Positions 5,560-25,030 of a DNA stretch of 64,000 nucleotides are shown piece after piece (positions within the stretch are counted from its first letter, which is position 1; the number at the start of each line of letters is the position of its first letter). The notes under the pieces are model-generated. The model searched no databases. It was not told the origin of the DNA and saw nothing but the letters and a program-made list of their open reading frames with translations. The stretch comes from Flavobacterium xanthum. Its GTDB lineage: Bacteria > Bacteroidota > Bacteroidia > Flavobacteriales > Flavobacteriaceae. The stretch spans positions 62,001 to 126,000 of the forward strand of contig NZ_FRBU01000003.1 of the NCBI RefSeq assembly GCF_900142695.1. The letters are read 5' to 3'. The position numbers and the translations under genes were made by a program.

Positions 5560-8500
5560 ATGAAACTAAAGTTTAATGGATTCTTAGTGCTCTTAGTAGT
5601 ACTTGTGGCGCAAATAACTTTTGCGCAAGAAAGAACTGTTTCTGGTGTTGTTTCTGATAATGCAGGATTGCCTTTACCAGGCGTGAGTGTGTTAGTGAAA
5701 GGAACACAATCTGGAACACAAACTGATTTTGATGGAAAATATTCTATCAGAGCAACACCTAGTCAAGTCTTGGTTTTCAGCTACATTGGGATGAAAACTC
5801 AAGAAGCAACTGCCACTTCGGCAAATGTTAACGTTAAACTTCTAGATGATTCCATCCAATTGGAAGGAGTTATAGTAGGAGCTTTAGGGATTAAAAGAAG
5901 TAAAAATTCGCTAACATCCTCTACGCAAGTGGTAGCAAGTCAAGAGCTAACTCAAGCTGCCAACCCTAACGTGGTGCAGTCTTTAGTTGGTAAAGTATCT
6001 GGTCTTCAAATAAACAAATCTTCAAGTGGAGTTAATGGAACAAACAGAATCGTATTAAGAGGTTCAAGATCTATTACTGGTAACAATGAAGCTTTGGTAG
6101 TTATTGATAACTCAATCTCTTCATCAGCTGTTTTGCAACAATTACCACCTGAATTAATTGAAAGCGTAAACGTTATTAAAGGTATGCAAGGTGCTGCACT
6201 ATATGGTGAGCAAGGAGTTAACGGAGTAATTATAGTTACTACAGTAAAAGGAAAAGAAAAAGGAAAAATCACGGTGAATGTAAATTCAGCTATCGATTTT
6301 GAGACAGTATCTTTTATGCCTGAAACACAACAAAAATATGGTCAAGGTTGGGACGGAGTTCACTATCCTGAAGAAAACGGATCATGGGGACTTCCTTTTG
6401 ATGGCGTGTTGAGACCAACAGGTTTACCACAAGCGGATGGACTTGAATTACAAAGACCTTACTCTTTCATCAAAGACAATGTTAAGGATTTCTACCAAAC
6501 AGGTACTACCTTCCAAAATGGATTTTCTATAAACGCTGGAACTTCAGACTCCTACGCTTTATTTTCTGCTAACAAAGTAAAGACAGAATTTATTGTAAAC
6601 GGAGATCAACTTGAAAGAAATAGTTTTTTATTCAAGGCAGGTAAAAAAATTGGAAAACTAAGCATTGATGGTAACGTTAACTACAACTATCAAAAATCTA
6701 CCGAAACTTCTAATGACTTACTTGACGATTTAATTCAGACAGCAGGAAATGTTGATTTATCGTTGTTTAAAAATTCTGGAAATGAAGGTAATTACACGAT
6801 ATATTTCAAAAATCCATATTGGACAATAGATAATAACCGTAATGACTCTAGAAGAACATTTATAAATACTATCGCAGCTTTGAAGTACGATATTAATAAA
6901 AACATAAATGTTACTTATACAGGTAACTTACAATTTACGAATAGAGATGCACAGTCTCACATCAATCAGTATAGAGAAACTCCAGATTTAGCAGGAGCAG
7001 GAGCAAATAGAAATCAAACTTCTGAATATTTTGCTAGTCAATCCTCTTTAAGAACTTATTATGGTGATTTATTAGTGAATTTTGACTACGATTTGACAGA
7101 TGATTTGAGTTTAAAAGCGAACGTCGGAAGTAACATGCAAGATCGTAACTACAGAATTACTTCACAAGGAGGACAAAATCTAGACATACCAGGATGGTAC
7201 CACATTAATAATGTATTGAGTCCAGCAAATCCATCTAATTTAGATAATAGATCTCAAAAATCAAATCGTGCTTCTGTTTTAGCTAACGTTGATTTAGGAT
7301 ACAAAAACTACTTGTTTTTAAATGTTACAGGTAGAAATGATTAGACTTCAGTTTTATCAAAAGAGAACAACAACTTCTTCTATCCAAGTGCTGGTGTATC
7401 TTTTGTACCAACTTTAGCTTTTGAAGGACTAAAAAGCGAAACTTTGAATTATTTGAAAGTATCTGCTAACATCGTAAAAGTGGGTAACTCCTCTTCTATC
7501 CAGCCTTATGCTACCTCTGAAATTGGTGTATTCCCAACAGGATTCCCTTACGGACAACTAGGATCGTACATCATCAACCAGAGACCAACTGATAAAAATA
7601 TCAAACCTGAATTTGTGACCACAAAAGAGGTAAATATTAATATTGGACTTTTCAACAATAGGATTACAATTGACGGGTCAGCTTACATATCTGACACAAA
7701 AGATTTGATTACAGCTGCTACTGCTTCTTCTGCATCAGGATTAGCCACTTCTCAAAGTAACATTGGAGATATGACTACAAAAGGTCTAGAAATTGACTTA
7801 GGATTCGTACCGGTTAAAACGGAAGATTTCAAATGGGACTTAAGAGCAAGTTATTCTACGAATAAATCAGTTATCAATTCACTTGCTGCTGGAGCAAATG
7901 AAATCAACCTTTTATCTGACGCTGCAACAGGAACTGGAATTTTTGCTCAAGTAGGAGAAGAATTTCCTTTGATTAAAGGAACAACCTTTTTAAGAGATGA
8001 TAATGGAAGCATTATTGTGAACCAGTTTGGACTTCCAACAAGATCTTCTTCAAACTCGATTTTAGGTAAATCAACTCCAGATTATATTTTAGGATTATCT
8101 AACTCATTTGAGTACAAAGGAATTAGATTATCTGCTGTTATGGATTACAGAACAGGTCACCAAATCATTTCTGGAACTAAATACGACTTAACTTGGCCAG
8201 GACGTTTAGTAGAATCAGCTGATTTTGATAGAGAGGTTGGTTTCATTTTACCAAACTCAGTAGTTGAAACTGCTCCAGGATCAGGAATCTACACTCCTAA
8301 TACTTCTGTTTACTCTGCAGCTGGTTATAATCCAAACGGAATTATTGATTATTACGGAACTTTGAGTAGAGCTGGAGAGCATAACGTTATTAACGCTACT
8401 GCTTTCAAAGTGAGAGAACTTGCTTTAAGTTATTCAATACCAACTACTGTAATTGAAAGAATTGGATTAACTTCACTTAGATTTGGTATAAATGCAAGAA

Positions 8501-8655
8501 ACCCATTTACTGTTTTGGCAAAAAGCAATAAAGGTTATACTGATCCAGAAGCATCTGACAGTACTGCAAACAATGGTAATGGTCTAGGATATTCAGGAAC
8601 AGGACAGTATCCAAATACAAGAACTTTTGGTGGAAGCATCAATTTAACATTCTAA
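5560..8655 (+). pseudogene. SusC/RagA-type TonB-dependent receptor interrupted by an amber codon
   Basis: A SusC-family outer-membrane receptor would import a ligand captured by its SusD partner, using TonB energy. The reading frame has a signal peptide (about 1-22), a carboxypeptidase-regulatory-like domain (about 25-100, with PGVSVLVKGTQSGTQTDFDG), a plug (about 110-225, ending NGVIIVTTVKG) and a barrel ending SINLTF. Codon 595 is TAG at 7342-7344. Translation on both sides stays in the same frame (VTGRND, stop, TSVLSKENN), and family members usually have tryptophan there (RNDWTS). One G-to-A change of TGG explains the break. Read through, the protein would be 1031 residues, normal for SusC. 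The 594-residue product alone would lack most of the barrel. A sequencing error is also possible. The intact susD begins 10 nt after the end. Confidence 0.85.
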
Positions 8656-8665
8656 ATTAAAAAGC

Positions 8666-10213
8666 ATGAAAAAAATATTTTTATTAATAGCAGTAGCAGC
8701 GGTATCACTTACATCTTGTAGTGACTACTTAGCAGACAACACCAATGTAAATAGTCCGCTAGAAGAAGCTCTTCCGCCAAGACTTATTTTACCTGGTGCG
8801 CAATCACAAGCATTCAGAACACAAGCTATAAACATGAACCGTTTAGGTAGTGTAATGACAAATGCATGGGGAGGTAACATATACCAATTTACAAATCCAT
8901 TGCAAGTAGAATATTCTTATAACTTTGACAACAACACCTATGCAGCAGTATGGGATGGATTATACAGAAGTGTAAACAACTTTCAAAAGATAATCGAGAC
9001 TCCTTTAGAGAATCAAGGCAATTTTGTTGCTATATCCAAGATCATGAAAGCACATTACATGCAATATATTGTCGATTTATATGGTGATTCACCTTACTTC
9101 GAAGCGTTTAAAGGACAAGCTAACCTAACACCAGCTTATACAGATGACGCAATAATTTATAAAGAATTAGTTAAAGAATTAGAAGAAGCACGTGCTCTTA
9201 TTCAAAACCCGTCTTCTACAGCAGAAGGTGTTGCTACTGACGTTGTTTTCAACGGAGATATGAGTAAATGGCTTAAACTAGCCAATACTATCGAGTTAAG
9301 AATTTTATTGAGACAAAGCAAACTGACTGATGCAGCGACTGTAACTTATGTAAATAGCAAATACGCAGACTTACAAGCTTTAAATAATTTTGTTGACGCT
9401 GATGTATTGATCAATCCAGGATACTCTTCTGCAAATGATGCTAAACAAAGTCCGTTCTTTAGTTCGTTCGTTAGAGATGCAGCAGGTGCTACAACAAATA
9501 CTACTTATACTTTATTTACTTCATCTAAACATTTTGCTGATGTATTAAATGGAGAAACTGGTGGTCCAACAGCTGGAGTTATTGACCCTAGAAGATCTAG
9601 ACTATGGCTACTTGTAGGAGGAAAAGTTGTAGGAACTGATCAAGGTCAAAAACCAGTTCCTGGTCAAAACAACACAACAAATCCAACTTCTAGATTTGGT
9701 TTAGGCTTAACTAATTATGTAGGTGCAAATACAGCAGCTAGAACTGCAGCAGGGTCTTCAAAAGCTGGAGCGCTAATGTTGCTTTCTGAAAGTAAATTTC
9801 TTCAAGCAGAGGCAGTTCAAAGAGGTTTTTTAACAACTGGAATAGCTCAAACTTTATTTAATGAAGGAGTTCAAGCTTCATTTACTTACTTAGGTGCTAC
9901 TATTGGAACTTATGCAGTTCAAATCGAAGCAGTTCCTGGATTTGGATGGACAGCATCTACTAATAAAATTCAAGCAATTTTAACACAAAAATGGATTGCA
10001 CTAAGCGGAATTCATGGTGTAGAAAATTACATCAATTACACTAGAACTGGATTCCCAGTAATCCCTGGTTCAATTAATGGTTTCAACTTGCAACCTACTA
10101 GACCAAAAAGACTGATTTATCCATTGTCAGAGTACAATGCAAATTCAGGTAATGTGCCTGTTTTAACATCTGCTCAAGTTACAACACAAGGTCCTTTCTG
10201 GTATGTACCGTAA
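8666..10213 (+). CDS. SusD/RagB-family outer-membrane lipoprotein
   Basis: SusD-type proteins are surface lipoproteins that lid their SusC partner and bind the nutrient. The protein has 515 residues. The lipobox SLTSC places the lipidated cysteine at residue 18. The N-terminal SusD-like region contains the helical repeats (for example MKAHYMQYIVDLYGDSPYFEAF), and the C-terminal part holds QAILTQKWIALSGIHGVENY, a typical SusD-family segment. It is 10 nt downstream of the susC frame and is followed by a terminator, so the two genes form an operon. No glycosidase or regulator is adjacent. The substrate cannot be named and may be a peptide or glycan. This gene is intact although its partner is interrupted. 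Confidence 0.9.
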   Translation: MKKIFLLIAVAAVSLTSCSDYLADNTNVNSPLEEALPPRLILPGAQSQAFRTQAINMNRLGSVMTNAWGGNIYQFTNPLQVEYSYNFDNNTYAAVWDGLYRSVNNFQKIIETPLENQGNFVAISKIMKAHYMQYIVDLYGDSPYFEAFKGQANLTPAYTDDAIIYKELVKELEEARALIQNPSSTAEGVATDVVFNGDMSKWLKLANTIELRILLRQSKLTDAATVTYVNSKYADLQALNNFVDADVLINPGYSSANDAKQSPFFSSFVRDAAGATTNTTYTLFTSSKHFADVLNGETGGPTAGVIDPRRSRLWLLVGGKVVGTDQGQKPVPGQNNTTNPTSRFGLGLTNYVGANTAARTAAGSSKAGALMLLSESKFLQAEAVQRGFLTTGIAQTLFNEGVQASFTYLGATIGTYAVQIEAVPGFGWTASTNKIQAILTQKWIALSGIHGVENYINYTRTGFPVIPGSINGFNLQPTRPKRLIYPLSEYNANSGNVPVLTSAQVTTQGPFWYVP

Positions 10214-18529: not shown

Positions 18530-21500
18530 ATGAAAAAAATTTTCTTACTCCTTATTTTAGTATCTACTTCAATTTTTGGACAAAACTATGACAAAAACTG
18601 GCTTAAAGTAATTGAATTTGAAAACGAAGGGAAAATAAAATCAGCCAATGAAATAGTTTCTAAAATCCGTCAAAAAGCTGCTCGAGATAAAGATGAAGTT
18701 CAAATCATAAAATGTTTTTTCTATGAATCCAAATATTTACAAGTTTTGGATGAAGATGCTCAAACCAAAATTATCAACAATTTAAAAACTGAAATCAACA
18801 AAGTCTCCATTCCATCTAAAGCAATTTTGAATTTGGTTTATGCGAAATGTTTAATTGATTATCGAAATCAAAACTCATATTTATTGTACAACAGAACCAA
18901 TACGGTGAGTTTTGACGATCAATTTTTAACTTGGACTCCAAAAGACTTTTCGGAACAAATAGATGGTGCTTTAGAAAAAACACTTCTTAATGAAACAATA
19001 TTAAAACAAACTTCCTTGAGCACGTATCTTCAAATATTTGATTATAGTGACGAAGAAAAAACTAAAAAAGACAATCTATTTAACTATTTAGTAAAAGAAA
19101 ACATTGCGCTATATACGCCACAGATTAGGCAATGGGAAATTCAAAAAAAAGAATTCTTGCCTTATGAAAAAGGATTTTTAGAGAATTCAGCATCTTTTGC
19201 ACAACTCAATTTTGATTTTGTAAAAAATGAAAAACTAAAAAAAGTGCTTGAATTGTACCAAAAACAGGAGAAAAACGCTCCTACTTTAGAAAACCAATTC
19301 GACCGAATTCAATTTTGCAACAACGTTTTGTTAGATTCAAACGAAGGATTTATGAAATCCTTACGATCCATGCAAAAAGAATCCAAGGACACCATTTTGA
19401 TTCAAAAAATACAATTAGAAAAGGCAATTATTCTCAACAATCTGGCTTCAAAAGAAGCACATCCTGATTATAACATTCAAGCCATCGCAACACTTGACAG
19501 CATTTTAAAAATTAATAATCGTTCAAATGCTCACAAAATAGCTTTACAAAAAATACAAAATATTCAAGCTAAATCCTTGAACATTCAGCTTCAAAAATTC
19601 AGCTATACTGATGAAAATACCAGAGCATTTATTCGGTATAAAAATTTAAATCGCCTGTCAGTTTCTTTCTTTAAAATTGATCAAAACATGACAAAAAATT
19701 TCCGAAATTCTCCTCACAACAAAGACAGTTTAGTAGCTGCAATCATCAAAAACAAAAAAGCAATTGCCAGTAAAAACTATGTACTTGAAGAAAAAAATAA
19801 TTATTTTGAATACAGCACGGAAGTCCTTTTACCGCCATTAAAAACAGGCAGTTATTTGGTGTATTTTGAAAGCAATTCAGATATCAAGAATACAAAAGCA
19901 TTTGCTTACGAAACTATTACAGTTTCTAATATCACCGTACTAACTTCGGAAAACGATAAGAAAGAAAACTATCAAGTTTTAGACAGAAAAACGGGAAAAC
20001 CTTTAGAAAATGTTTCTATTACACTACTAAATCAAACACTTATAACTGACAAAAGTGGTAATGCAACGTTTACCAAAGAAAATAACAACCGCAATTACAG
20101 TCTTATTGAATTTACAACTGAAAACGATTCACTGTTACTGAACAGTCGCTACTCCTATTATAATAATGACTACGATTACGAGACTTTAGAAAACCAAAAA
20201 GCAAAAGGTAAAGTCGAATTCTATTTGGACCGCGCTATTTACCGTCCGGGACAAACGGTTTATTACAAAGGAATTGCTTTTAGAAAAGACCAAGACAAAA
20301 CGAGCGTGGTTGCAAAAACAGCATTCAAAATTACAATTCAAGACCCTAACGGTACTGCCTTCAAAGAATTTGAAGCCGTTACAAATGAATACGGCTCTTT
20401 TTCTGGAGAATTTTTATTACCAAAAAGTGGAATGACAGGAAATTTCAGAATCATTGCTGATGAACCTGATGATTATGAAAAAGATGTTTTTTACGATAAA
20501 ATAAAAGACGAGCACCCGTTTTGGGACAATGTAAATTATGAGAATTCTCAAATATCATTTCAAGTGGAAGAATACAAACGTCCTAAATTTGAAGTTACTT
20601 TTGAGGCAGTAAAAAAAACATATAAAGTCAATCAAAAAGTAAGTGTAACTGGAATTGCCAAAGCTTTTTCGGGAAGCAACATCTCCGATGCAAAAGTAAG
20701 TTATAAGATTACACTAATCCCTTACACCTTAAGCAACGGTTACTATTACCAACAAAACGGCAAATCAGAAAATCTTTTAGTTGGTGAGACTACAACAGAT
20801 GCTTCGGGGAAATTCGATATAAATTTTATCGCTAAACCATTTGAAAACAGCTCTAAAGAACAGTTACCCATTTTTGAATATTCTATCTCAGCATCCGTGA
20901 CTGATAGTAATGGGGAGACCCAACAAGCTCAAACAAATGTTAGGGTTGGCTATCATTCTTTGACACTTACTGCAACTATACCAAATCGAATTGAAACCAA
21001 AAATGAAAATGAAATTGAACTAAAAAGCACCAATCTCAATGGAGAATTTTTAGCTGTAAAAGGCGAGATTAACCTTTATTATGTGAGTCCTTTTTTGGAT
21101 AAATTTAAATCCCGAGTTTTTCCACAACCAGAAATCGAATCGATTTCAAAAGAAGAGTTTGAGCGATTATTTCCATACGAACAAAATGAAAAAGCAACTG
21201 TTGAAAAACCAAGTCCAACTTTAGTCTTTTCTAAAAAAATTGACACAGAAAAAGACAAGAAATTAGTTTTAGATTTTATTTCCAATTACAAATCCGGGAA
21301 TTATAAAGTGGTGTTTTCCGCTAAAGATGCTTTTGAAAATCCAATAGAAACCAGTACTAATTTCCAATTGCTACAAAGCAAAGACAAAATTGATTCGAGT
21401 AAATTATTTGTTGCGAAACAAATCAATATTGATGCTAAAAAAGATGGTTTTGTTTTAGTCAAATTAACGTCGGTTATTCCTGAACTTTACATCAACACAA

Positions 21501-24500
21501 CTGGCAATTATCAAAGTTTCCTTTATTTTGAGAATACTTTTCAATTGCAAAACAATCAAATCATTGTCAAAATTCCTTTGAAAAAAGAATTTGAAAAAAG
21601 TATGAAAATTGCTTTTGAAAGTGTTTTTGAAAATCAAACTTTTTACGACCAAATAGACGTAATTCTTAGAGAGGAGGAATCCAAATTGCAATTCACAGTT
21701 GAAAGTTTAAGAAACAAATTACAACCCGGAACCAATGAAAATTGGTCGTTTCAAATAAAATCAATTAATACTGCAAAAGAAGCTGAAGTCTTAGCCTCAA
21801 TGTATGACAGTTCTTTAGATCAGTTTGCTAAAAGAGACTGGAATCCCCTGAAATTCAATAATTATAATTACAACTCTGCTAATTTTAAAACTAGTATCGG
21901 ATTCGATAAAACCTCAATTTACATTCGGAATCTAAATCCTATTCCAAATCGCATGGAACTTATTGATGAAACTACAAAACTAATATGGTTTGGCTTTAAC
22001 ATCAACGATTCTTTCACTGAACAGCAACAAAAAGCGTATCGAAAAGAACTAAATAGTAAAAGCAGAAAACCGCTTACTGCCAAAATGATTTCTGGAATTG
22101 TTACTGATGGTCAGTTACCATTGCCTGGTGTGAATATCATTATTGATGGACTTCAACGAAGCACGCAAACTGACTTTGATGGTTATTACCAAATAGAGGC
22201 TGCAATAGGAGAAGAGTTGACTATTAACTATATTGGTTTTGAACAAAAAATAATCAAAATTGATTCAAACGTTGTCGATATTGTCTTAACCGAGTCACAA
22301 AACAGCCTTCAAGAGGTTGTCGTTATGGCGTATGAAAGTGTTAAGAAGAAATCTCTAGCTAGCAATACGGGTGTTGCTGCAGTCGTTGAAGAAGCTGACA
22401 ATCAAATTTATAATTCTGCTGGAATAGCTATAAAATTAGAAGGAAAAGCTAGTGGAATAACAATTAGAGGAAACTTAAGTATTTCAGGCAACTACAAAAA
22501 TGCCTTGTATATCGTTGATGGCGAAGTAATAACAGAAGAACAATTCAGATTAATTTCTCCGACCGATATTATTGCTATTGATGTTCTAAAAGAAGAGAAA
22601 GCCATCGCATTATATGGAAGTAAAGCAGCTAACGGAGCAATTATCATCACAACCAAAAAAGCTTTGGAAGCCTTAACTCAAGTAAAAGCCAGAAAAAATC
22701 TCTCAGAAACTGCTTTCTTTTATCCGAATCTAAAAACAGATACAACAGGAAAAGTAAGTTTCAATTTCACTTCGCCTGAAGCTTTAACCGCTTGGAAACT
22801 TCGGCTATTAGCGCACAATAAAGAGGCAACAAGCGGCTATTTAGAAAAAAGTGTCATTACTCAAAAAGAGTTAATGGTTACCCCAAATTTTCCACGTTTT
22901 TTCAGGGAAAAAGACAGTATTTTAATCACTGCAAAAGTGGCGAATATTACCAATGAGGCCAAAACTGGAATTGCTATTTTACAACTTTTTGATGCAACAA
23001 CAATGCAACCAATAGATGCTAAAATGGAAAATGCGAATTCAGTAAAAAACTTTAAAATCGCTCCTTTTGGAAATACAACCGTGAGTTGGAAAATTTATGT
23101 TCCAGAAGGTCTGCAAGGCGTTCAGTATAAAGTTTTAGCTAAGGCAGGTAACTTTTCGGATGGGGAAGAAAACCTACTTCCTGTTTTAACAAATTCTATG
23201 TTGGTTACCGAGAGCATTCCGATTTGGGTTCGAAAAAATTCAAAGAAAGAATATACCTTCGAAAACCTAAAAAACAACAATTCGACCAGTCTACAAAACC
23301 ATCAATTTACGTTAGAATACACCTCAAATCCATCTTGGTTAGCCATTCAGTCTTTGCCCTATTTGATGGAATACGAACACGAAAGCGCGGAACATACCTT
23401 TGCCAGATTTTATGCGAATGCTTTAGCGTCTGAAATTATTTCTAGCAATCCAAAAATTGCTAATCTATTCGAAACTTGGAGAAAAAATGAAAAGTTGAAT
23501 TCGAAACTAGAAGAAAACGAAGAACTAAAATCGATTATTCTTGCAGAAACACCGTGGTTGAATGATGCTCAAACCGAAGAAGAGAAAAAGAAAAATCTTG
23601 CTTTACTTTTTGATTTAGAAAAAATGAAAAACGCACAAGAAGTAACTTTTGATAAGCTGAAACAAAAGCAAACAACGTCCGGAGGTTTCGCATGGTTTGA
23701 AGGAAGTACTGAAAACGAATACATAACCCGACATATTTTGGCCGGTTTAGGACATCTTTCAAAATTAAGTAATAATGAAAACATCACTTCCAAAATCAAG
23801 CAAATTACAGCAATCGGAATTCCATTTTTAGATAAAAAGTTTTTAGAAAATCATAAAACCAGAACAGAAAAATTAAAAACAAAAGAAAAATTGATTTGGT
23901 TCAATCCGTATTCTGATTTACATTATTTATACACCCGAAGCTATTATCTGAAAACGTATCCGCTTTCGGATACGTTACAAAAAGCCTCTAAATTGTACCT
24001 TGAAATTGCGAAAAAAGAGTGGTTAACCTATTCCTTATACGAAAAAGGATTAGCGGCATTGACTCTAGAGCGCTTTGGCGAAAAAGAAGCTGCCAAAATA
24101 ATTCTGGCAAGCTTGAAAGAAACCGCTTCGAATAATGAAGATTGGGGAATGTATTGGATAGCTAATAAATCTGGCTATTTCTGGTACCAAGCCCCTATTG
24201 AAACGCAAGCACTATTGATTGAGGCTTTCGCAGAAATTAGCAACGACACTAAATCTGTAGATGCTATGAAGGTTTGGTTATTAAAAAACAAACAAAGCAA
24301 AAACTGGCCCACCACAAAATCCACCACCGAAGCAATTTATGCTTTATTGATGCAAGGAACCGATTGGTTGAGCGTCAAAGACAACACAATTTTCAAAATT
24401 GGAACCGAAAAAATATTAACCAAAAAATTAGTTGAAAACGAAAAAGAAGCCGAAACAGGTTATGTAAAACTAAACTGGAACGCAGAAGAAATCAAAAAAG

Positions 24501-25030
24501 ACATGGCAACTATTTCCATCGAAAACAAATCTAAAGTTCCAGGTTTTGGAGGTATTTATTGGCAATATTTTGAAGAATTAGATAAAATAAAAACCAATTC
24601 TGGAACTGCATTATCAGTTTCCAAAGAATTATATGTAAAGAAAGATACTGACAAAGGCGAAATATTGGAACGAATCAATTCAAATAATCTATTGAAAATC
24701 GGTGATTTAGTCACCGTTAGATTAGTAATTTCTGCAAAGGAAGACATGGAATTTGTACATTTAAAAGACATGCGTGCTTCTTGTTTTGAACCCATAGATG
24801 TACTTTCTGCATACCAATACAAAGGTGGGTTGAGTTTTTATCAAAGTACTAAAGATGCTGCAACACATTTCTTTTTTGACCAAATAAACAAAGGGACCTA
24901 CGTATTAGAATATGACATTCGAGTGAACAACAAAGGTGATTTCTCTAATGGTATTTCAACCATTCAAAGTATGTACGCTCCTGAATATTCCAGTCATACT
25001 AAAGGAATTCGGGTACAAGTCAAGGAATAA
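18530..25030 (+). CDS. Alpha-2-macroglobulin-like protein with internal carboxypeptidase-regulatory and TonB-plug-like domains
   Basis: This very large exported protein (2166 residues) has a signal peptide (MKKIFLLLILVSTSIFGQ). An N-terminal helical region is followed by a macroglobulin MG2-type domain (about 555-660, with LDRAIYRPGQTVYYKG), further MG domains, and the core A2M region from about 1392 (TDTTGKVSFNFTSPEALTAW). Between them lie a carboxypeptidase-regulatory-like domain (about 1188-1262, with LPGVNIIIDGLQRSTQTDFD) and a SusC-plug-like stretch (about 1260-1370, ending GSKAANGAIIITTKK). No barrel follows the plug. Where thioester A2M proteins have GCxEQ, this one has E1618-S-A-E-H1622, so no thioester can form. 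The C-terminal alpha/alpha barrel and receptor-binding-like domain are present. Bacterial relatives trap proteases at the envelope, but with the thioester lost the role here is open. The gene is monocistronic, with a terminator behind it. Confidence 0.85.
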   Translation: MKKIFLLLILVSTSIFGQNYDKNWLKVIEFENEGKIKSANEIVSKIRQKAARDKDEVQIIKCFFYESKYLQVLDEDAQTKIINNLKTEINKVSIPSKAILNLVYAKCLIDYRNQNSYLLYNRTNTVSFDDQFLTWTPKDFSEQIDGALEKTLLNETILKQTSLSTYLQIFDYSDEEKTKKDNLFNYLVKENIALYTPQIRQWEIQKKEFLPYEKGFLENSASFAQLNFDFVKNEKLKKVLELYQKQEKNAPTLENQFDRIQFCNNVLLDSNEGFMKSLRSMQKESKDTILIQKIQLEKAIILNNLASKEAHPDYNIQAIATLDSILKINNRSNAHKIALQKIQNIQAKSLNIQLQKFSYTDENTRAFIRYKNLNRLSVSFFKIDQNMTKNFRNSPHNKDSLVAAIIKNKKAIASKNYVLEEKNNYFEYSTEVLLPPLKTGSYLVYFESNSDIKNTKAFAYETITVSNITVLTSENDKKENYQVLDRKTGKPLENVSITLLNQTLITDKSGNATFTKENNNRNYSLIEFTTENDSLLLNSRYSYYNNDYDYETLENQKAKGKVEFYLDRAIYRPGQTVYYKGIAFRKDQDKTSVVAKTAFKITIQDPNGTAFKEFEAVTNEYGSFSGEFLLPKSGMTGNFRIIADEPDDYEKDVFYDKIKDEHPFWDNVNYENSQISFQVEEYKRPKFEVTFEAVKKTYKVNQKVSVTGIAKAFSGSNISDAKVSYKITLIPYTLSNGYYYQQNGKSENLLVGETTTDASGKFDINFIAKPFENSSKEQLPIFEYSISASVTDSNGETQQAQTNVRVGYHSLTLTATIPNRIETKNENEIELKSTNLNGEFLAVKGEINLYYVSPFLDKFKSRVFPQPEIESISKEEFERLFPYEQNEKATVEKPSPTLVFSKKIDTEKDKKLVLDFISNYKSGNYKVVFSAKDAFENPIETSTNFQLLQSKDKIDSSKLFVAKQINIDAKKDGFVLVKLTSVIPELYINTTGNYQSFLYFENTFQLQNNQIIVKIPLKKEFEKSMKIAFESVFENQTFYDQIDVILREEESKLQFTVESLRNKLQPGTNENWSFQIKSINTAKEAEVLASMYDSSLDQFAKRDWNPLKFNNYNYNSANFKTSIGFDKTSIYIRNLNPIPNRMELIDETTKLIWFGFNINDSFTEQQQKAYRKELNSKSRKPLTAKMISGIVTDGQLPLPGVNIIIDGLQRSTQTDFDGYYQIEAAIGEELTINYIGFEQKIIKIDSNVVDIVLTESQNSLQEVVVMAYESVKKKSLASNTGVAAVVEEADNQIYNSAGIAIKLEGKASGITIRGNLSISGNYKNALYIVDGEVITEEQFRLISPTDIIAIDVLKEEKAIALYGSKAANGAIIITTKKALEALTQVKARKNLSETAFFYPNLKTDTTGKVSFNFTSPEALTAWKLRLLAHNKEATSGYLEKSVITQKELMVTPNFPRFFREKDSILITAKVANITNEAKTGIAILQLFDATTMQPIDAKMENANSVKNFKIAPFGNTTVSWKIYVPEGLQGVQYKVLAKAGNFSDGEENLLPVLTNSMLVTESIPIWVRKNSKKEYTFENLKNNNSTSLQNHQFTLEYTSNPSWLAIQSLPYLMEYEHESAEHTFARFYANALASEIISSNPKIANLFETWRKNEKLNSKLEENEELKSIILAETPWLNDAQTEEEKKKNLALLFDLEKMKNAQEVTFDKLKQKQTTSGGFAWFEGSTENEYITRHILAGLGHLSKLSNNENITSKIKQITAIGIPFLDKKFLENHKTRTEKLKTKEKLIWFNPYSDLHYLYTRSYYLKTYPLSDTLQKASKLYLEIAKKEWLTYSLYEKGLAALTLERFGEKEAAKIILASLKETASNNEDWGMYWIANKSGYFWYQAPIETQALLIEAFAEISNDTKSVDAMKVWLLKNKQSKNWPTTKSTTEAIYALLMQGTDWLSVKDNTIFKIGTEKILTKKLVENEKEAETGYVKLNWNAEEIKKDMATISIENKSKVPGFGGIYWQYFEELDKIKTNSGTALSVSKELYVKKDTDKGEILERINSNNLLKIGDLVTVRLVISAKEDMEFVHLKDMRASCFEPIDVLSAYQYKGGLSFYQSTKDAATHFFFDQINKGTYVLEYDIRVNNKGDFSNGISTIQSMYAPEYSSHTKGIRVQVKE

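Follow-up and report, generated by a model that had tools for sequence, protein, structure and literature searches.

The window analysed here, a 64,000-nucleotide stretch of the Flavobacterium xanthum genome (contig NZ_FRBU01000003.1), contains an open reading frame (ORF) at 18530-25030 on the forward strand that encodes an alpha-2-macroglobulin (A2M) of 2166 residues, the sole PF00207 match in this genome. Its membership in the A2M superfamily follows from its macroglobulin (MG) domains, its A2M family domain and a structural model that aligns with A2M and complement structures at Z scores of about 19-23. The helical thioester domain is present as well, with helices at positions 612-951 of a model covering residues 990-2166 that align to the thioester domains of C5 (9y6c, Z = 21.0) and C4 (1hzf, Z = 19.5). 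The Pfam matches to MG2, PF00207 and bMG10 are all above cut-off, and these A2M domains flank, on both sides, a segment of a different kind at 22085-22670 (residues 1186-1380), which computation identifies as the N-terminal part of a SusC-type TonB-dependent transporter situated in the bait region of the A2M. Flavobacterium sandaracinum supplies the closest named relative among the matches listed (96% over the post-bait part).

Several matches support the SusC origin of the insert. Pfam CarbopepD_reg_2 matches residues 1187-1265 (E = 6.7e-14), the NCBIfam SusC/RagA model TIGR04056 aligns residues 1186-1392 with profile positions 2-220 of 981 (E = 1.3e-43), the SusC signature TIGR04057 matches residues 1346-1376, and the best solved relatives by sequence are SusC homologues, e.g., 5t3r over residues 1191-1399. 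The TIGR04056 match falls below the whole-protein cut-off, as expected because there is no barrel; no outer-membrane barrel was found, as the match ends at profile position 220 of 981 and A2M domains come next. A first-pass annotation of this DNA had proposed a SusC-type regulatory domain and plug lacking a barrel, and the Pfam and NCBIfam matches together with 5t3r confirm such a module at residues 1186-1392. A putative Ton box scores 31.8 against a block threshold of 8.3, and the regulatory domain is identified as the N-terminal extension (NTE) of SusC/RagA proteins by both Pfam and structure. As in the transporters BT1763 and RagA, the NTE, Ton box and C-terminal half plug follow one another in SusC order; unlike in these transporters, the module has no barrel, a condensed and disordered N-terminal plug half, and a place inside an A2M.

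We modelled the insert within residues 1003-1517 (39 sequences, mean pLDDT 61, pTM 0.29, with the flanking macroglobulin parts at low confidence). Only two pieces of it fold in this model: the regulatory domain, which is confident at residues 1185-1252 (block means 82-94) and superposes on the SusC NTE of 9hfj (rmsd 1.0 over 78 columns, TM 0.91 by target length), and a small beta-alpha-beta unit at residues 1326-1375 that corresponds to the C-terminal half of a plug (pLDDT 66-83). Structure prediction, the check that had been proposed, therefore shows something other than ordinary macroglobulin domains. The plug-like segment was only partly corroborated: its C-terminal half is present, while its N-terminal half is shortened and predicted to be disordered, residues 1259-1322 being of low confidence in the larger model as well. 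The Pfam Plug match, which exceeds its cut-off in a scan limited to the bait (E = 1.1e-6), covers only profile positions 41-107 of 107, and in LEGKASGITIRG the SusC motifs LQGRVAGV and IRG are fused, the piece that separates them in SusC being absent. The distance from the NTE block to the plug signature is 131 residues in the window protein, compared with medians of 135 in A2Ms (n = 32) and 143 in SusC proteins (n = 23; P = 0.0001 between the two groups). The evidence for disorder comes from the models of the window protein only, the shorter baits of its relatives lying outside them.

The position of the insert was examined against the E. coli A2M, YfhM. PMC4498604 places the YfhM bait within MG8, describes residues 923-942 as lacking density after cleavage and 947-963 as disordered before it, and states that A2M traps are sprung by cutting of the bait. 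With the numbering checked on the K-12 protein, the YfhM bait is flanked by anchors at 898 and 965, to which residues 1090 and 1393 of the window protein correspond (pairing by eye). The larger model (residues 990-2166, mean pLDDT 72, pTM 0.52) aligns from its residue 401, which is residue 1390 of the protein, to YfhM 963 in 5a42 (Z = 21.4, rmsd 7.1, 649 aligned), and similarly to 4u48 (Z = 21.4, rmsd 7.8, 673 aligned). Therefore, the anchors and the modelled structure indicate that the SusC-type insert fills the A2M bait; we rely on these two lines because the bait profile matches YfhM only weakly when compared directly (hhalign probability 28). The first-pass annotation took the insert to point away from classic protease trapping, a reading not supported by its location at the very place where cutting springs the trap. 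Coordinates are collected in Table 1.

Table 1. Features of the A2M gene in the window and the residues they encode.
Feature	Position	Strand	Residues and basis
A2M ORF	18530..25030	+	2166 aa; start resembles a signal peptide, without lipobox Cys (by eye)
MG2 domain	20219..20470	+	564-647; Pfam
Upstream anchor SMYDSSLD	21797..21820	+	1090-1097; paired by eye with E. coli YfhM AVDSGVLN at 898
Bait region with SusC-type insert	21986..22681	+	1153-1384
NTE / carboxypeptidase regulatory-like domain	22082..22324	+	1185-1265; Pfam, model, match to 9hfj
Predicted disordered stretch, Ton box and condensed N-terminal plug half	22304..22495	+	1259-1322; pLDDT about 28-38
Ton-box-like motif QEVVVMA	22310..22330	+	1261-1267; block score
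LEGKASGITIRG	22436..22471	+	1303-1314; SusC motifs LQGRVAGV and IRG fused
C-terminal half plug, beta-alpha-beta	22505..22654	+	1326-1375; overlaps TIGR04057 (1346-1376)
A2M family domain PF00207	22709..22963	+	1394-1478; macroglobulin fold resumes
Dead thioester site ESAEH	23381..23395	+	1618-1622; surrounding thioester domain predicted to fold
bMG10 C-terminal domain	24611..24985	+	2028-2152; Pfam

The window protein resembles YfhM and the Salmonella A2M in its fold from the bait end to the C-terminus, its bait, its thioester domain and bMG10. In contrast to YfhM, about 300 residues separate its anchors (67 in YfhM) and are filled with SusC pieces, the C and Q of the thioester are lost, and no lipobox is visible. 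Because its start looks like a signal peptide without the lipobox Cys, it is probably a soluble periplasmic protein, unlike the lipoprotein YfhM. We did not recognise pbpC by eye among the neighbouring genes, and no search was aimed at it. Complement C3 and C5 belong to the same superfamily, and alignments to C3 start at model residues 403-404 and C3 residues 744-766. The anaphylatoxin domain of complement lies just ahead of the place in C3 that matches the resumed fold of the window protein, in which, unlike in C3 and C5, the inserted domain is a transporter module. A single cut in the disordered stretch would likely release neither of the two small domains of this module, since they flank it.

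SusC-type pieces are widespread in the baits of related A2Ms. The post-bait part, used as a profile, detected 503 or more encoding stretches across named genomes, 80 of which were kept, and gave matches in 61 of the 198 genomes of a phylum sample, about 24 of them weak and to distant A2Ms. The scored set of 115 proteins comprises the window protein, 12 from further genomes, 74 of the 80 named loci (L numbers denote loci, G numbers genomes) and 28 of 40 phylum loci. Outside it are L045-L047 (G040, G053, G048), the fragments L019, L048, L050, L064 and L073, three loci that do not meet the anchor pattern (L082, L107 and L093, the last with none of the six blocks described below), the duplicates L040 and L176, three loci in which the anchor was not found (L165, L172, L174), the distant A2Ms L185-L192, and the strong phylum matches in G188 and G215. 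Using six blocks built from 20 SusC proteins, we found at least one SusC-type block in 91 of the 115 within the 270 residues before the fold resumes, a span that may include some hits from just upstream of the bait and a small share (a few percent) of chance matches. Blocks were concentrated in the bait (bait versus elsewhere, in numbers of proteins: Ton box 57 and 2, LQGRVAGV 45 and 0, signature 52 and 0, IRG 41 and 2, PLYVVDG 47 and 3, NTE 43 and 6), with the non-bait part being 9 times longer than the bait.

Profile libraries gave a consistent picture. When the baits were scanned with all of NCBIfam, a library that was not hand-picked, SusC/RagA TIGR04056 matched 70 of the 115, and most of the 25 families among the matches listed were TonB receptors; the commonest match of another kind was BamP (29/115), which in the window protein falls on the NTE. 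Pfam found Plug in 46 baits and CarbopepD_reg_2 in 42. In a BLAST comparison of baits with SusC proteins, none of the 2609 matches ended more than 22 residues past the plug signature and none lay wholly beyond it. For six weak baits outside Flavobacteriaceae, NCBIfam returned SusC for L170 (E = 0.0054), only a regulatory-domain-like match for L156 (SusC E = 0.083), and nothing relevant for L153, L160, L169 and L171.

The composition of the bait varies considerably. The 115 baits fall into four classes: regulatory domain (NTE) together with the plug signature (32), half plug (20), NTE without signature (11) and short (52). Block scoring of a first set yielded baits from 73 of 76 proteins (75 of the 80 named loci and the window protein; none from L061, L091 and L127), and the 34 short baits among them contained the Ton box 16 times and LQGRVAGV 9 times, where about 0.2 of each was expected. 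In all six short baits with both motifs, LQGRVAGV precedes the Ton box, the reverse of the SusC order, and L163, from another family of the same class, shows the order LQGRVAGV, Ton box, IRG, PLYVVDG, signature. Genome G027 carries two A2M copies, L043 and L044, one with a half-plug bait and the other with an NTE-plus-signature bait.

Phylogenetic analysis of 56 N-terminal modules (33 from A2Ms, including the fragment L019, and 23 from SusC proteins) showed that the A2M inserts do not form a clade (AU P = 0.00043), and well-supported branches force at least five changes between A2M and SusC. Treated as a four-state character, bait class changes 25 times on the backbone tree, an approximate figure because this tree was built quickly and has long branches. 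The insert of L016 groups with L144, a SusC of its own genome (G024), with support of 100/97 and 64% identity, against next-best identities of 49% among the eight genomes compared and 51% for L028 elsewhere. The half plug of L097 (Winogradskyella) shares 57% identity with a SusC encoded in the same genome, and its relatives L111 and L112 are A2Ms without a half plug. As far as these sequences allow, computation shows more than one capture and frequent switching of the bait.

Receptors other than SusC appear to have contributed as well. The bait of L153, from another class, resembles two NTE-plus-Plug receptors of its own genome, L220 and L221 (E = 1.3e-6 and 6.8e-5), a likeness drawn from BLAST and reading; these receptors are not SusC-like by eye, and we take them to be of the Oar type. 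In a second A2M subfamily, whose members are about 1500 residues long, a Ton box and plug lie shortly before PF00207 and GCFEQ is intact; Pfam detects the plug at the bait site in L205 and L217, and in L212 it was recognised there by eye. At E = 1e-20, the C-terminal part of this subfamily has matches in 3 of 148 phylum genomes. Regulatory domains occupy the place of the bait in L216, and L218 shows a weak regulatory-like match between A2M_BRD and PF00207.

The thioester site of the window protein reads YEHESAEHTFA, so that both C and Q are lost, as the first-pass annotation had recognised. It had further treated insertion and thioester loss as a pair and proposed a family survey of both; we show that the insertion is indeed widespread, but that thioester loss is rare, CxEQ being kept in 107 of the 115 A2Ms (104 by script and L164, L171 and L180 by eye), including 26 of the 32 with the full insert. 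We therefore reject thioester loss as the counterpart of the insert, and on the present sequences the two are largely independent of each other. Six of the eight proteins without CxEQ have Cys changed to Ser (window protein, L057, L010, L011, L182 and L060), the others being L041 and L169. A first tree counted two changes for these six, and a single loss is compatible with the data (AU P = 0.61), so one Cys-to-Ser event in a small Flavobacterium group would be enough. CxEQ is missing from some accepted members of the superfamily, and the membership of the window protein stands while, judging from its site, covalent trapping does not. In L045-L047, from the same order, thioester and NTE/plug are both lost, and short pieces like GVVVRG and EEVVV are visible by eye in the baits of L045 and L046.

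To characterise selection on the bait, we compared 13 pairs, which are not independent because some share a protein. The bait dN/dS (0.11-0.48) exceeded that of the C-terminal half (0.05-0.11) in all 13 pairs and that of the N-terminal half in 10. We found no positive selection on the bait: dN/dS was below 1 in every pair. These computed ratios show purifying constraint on the bait, looser than on the body of the protein. Divergence at four-fold sites differed between bait and rest for L088/L122 (0.13 and 0.35, P = 2.6e-5) and marginally for the window protein and L057 (P = 0.027, uncorrected).

Taken together, these observations suggest that N-terminal pieces of TonB-dependent transporters (the NTE domain, the Ton box, the LQGRVAGV and IRG segments and the half plug) have repeatedly come to fill the A2M bait of Bacteroidota. 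Most of these pieces are of SusC/RagA type, whereas one genome from another class seems to have drawn on a different kind of receptor. Loss of plug parts would leave the Ton-box stretch, flanked by two small folded units, unfolded and cleavable. A periplasmic protease that attacks transporter N-termini, be it an intruder or part of the cell's own quality control, might then take the A2M bait instead; the cut would spring the conformational change and cage the protease, covalently where the thioester is intact and only sterically in the group of the window protein. We give about an even chance to the proposal that such a mimic bait draws the proteases attacking TonB-transporter N-termini. Somewhat short of even, in our judgement, is the fuller version, in which the trap's bait imitates the cell's own transporters, is refreshed from transporter genes of the same genome and is matched to the transporters guarded or to the quality-control protease.

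Several observations weigh against this proposal. The protease, its cleavage of the bait and the trapping are all predicted, a folded NTE is a poor protease substrate, and the window protein itself lacks the thioester. None of the six blocks is found in 24 of the 115 baits, and only 57 have a Ton box. SusC modules without a barrel are also found in unrelated proteins of the envelope (DUF4139, YfbK/vWA and, weakly, M56), so baits are not the only place to which the module has spread. Recent copying of a bait from a donor was not seen, as the nearest candidate donors found are only 67-71% identical in DNA (L016-L214, 71% over 371 bases; L097-L210, 68% over 291 bases; L062-L029, 67%, with the candidate donor in another genome). 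A YfbK/vWA plug protein of the same genome is nearly as close to L097 as the SusC is (54% versus 57%). An arms race finds no support in dN/dS values below 1, and only one of eight pairs shows clearly that the bait has its own synonymous history, six being not significant.

The strongest rival is a neutral one: the bait is a loop that tolerates insertions, into which abundant SusC N-termini land in frame, decay and are replaced, unselected for likeness to transporters. High turnover (the 25 changes), barrel-less modules in other envelope proteins, about 14 ORFs for SusC-like or related receptors in the window genome, and the frequency of truncated and degenerate bait pieces are all in line with such a process. 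Yet no bait matches the SusC barrel, although the barrel makes up most of the gene, and two SusC motifs are retained in short baits, though in another order. The bait dN/dS, the agreement of L153 with another receptor type of its own genome, and the use of the same position in a second A2M subfamily also speak against it, and we regard neutral landing as unlikely, though a serious contender. Coupling to TonB appears less probable still. Here, the bait Ton box would bind the C-terminal domain of TonB, force or docking would open, reset or localise the trap, and the NTE would pick the TonB paralogue. The attraction of this idea comes from the importance of the SusC Ton box in mutants and from the possible role of the NTE in choosing TonB: QEVVVMA fits the Bt1763 Ton box, VDEVVV, on which growth on levan depends according to mutants in PMC7782687, whose authors also propose the NTE as a possible source of specificity for TonB orthologues. 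The Ton-box block is present in 57 of the 115 baits, including 16 of the 34 short ones, and its stretch is disordered in the model of the window protein. However, half of the baits have no Ton box, e.g., most half-plug forms of Flavobacterium, and LQGRVAGV and half-plug pieces are kept without it. These pieces are not known to take part in TonB binding.

A docking role, which the first-pass annotation had raised, would have the barrel-less plug bind SusD or the empty barrel of a TonB receptor and the protein serve for something other than trapping proteases. The genuine homology to NTE and plug speaks for it, but the N-terminal plug half is shortened and disordered, the short, reordered motifs of relatives are unlikely to form a plug, the position is that of the bait, and 107 of the 115 proteins keep the thioester. 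With half of the plug shortened and disordered and the motifs recurring as short, reordered pieces, a plug that fits a barrel is evidently not what is conserved, and we consider docking highly improbable.

In the literature searched, no description of an A2M combined with a SusC module was found, and the main text of PMC12611786 does not contain the word macroglobulin. Protein annotation already names some plug-bearing A2Ms. Both parts are of known kinds; what would be new is an A2M variant with a self-mimicking, repeatedly captured bait. If the mimic-bait proposal is correct, it would account for a fusion that many Bacteroidota genomes carry and give the A2Ms of this phylum a predicted target, the proteases acting on TonB-transporter N-termini. 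It would also be an example of an inhibitor with a bait that evolves as pieces of the proteins it possibly guards are captured again and again. What bacterial A2Ms protect would thereby become testable, because the protease could be predicted from the bait.

The barrel-less carriers mentioned above share NTE and/or plug without a barrel with the A2Ms, but are not macroglobulins and do not hold the module at a known protease bait. In L206 (1028-3106, reverse strand), a DUF4140/DUF4139 protein, NTE and Plug lie inside the DUF4139 domain without a barrel, and L211 (644-2737, forward strand), a YfbK/vWA protein, has an N-terminal NTE, a Ton box and a Plug in place of the barrel. In the genome of the window, L223 (1841-3820 and 1-1428, reverse strand) encodes two adjacent M56 BlaR1-like peptidases; by eye, several half-plug-like repeats follow the peptidase part of the first (one Pfam Plug match, E = 0.00028, below cut-off), and the second has at least one. 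Also in this genome, L224 (619-1383, reverse strand) encodes a stand-alone protein of 255 residues with a single NTE-like domain by Pfam, about the size of the NCBIfam BamP model. Within the window, a SusC gene at 5560-8655 contains one in-frame stop at 7342-7344, within the barrel, which reflects either a pseudogene or a sequencing error, and is followed by a SusD-like gene (by eye) at 8666-10213.

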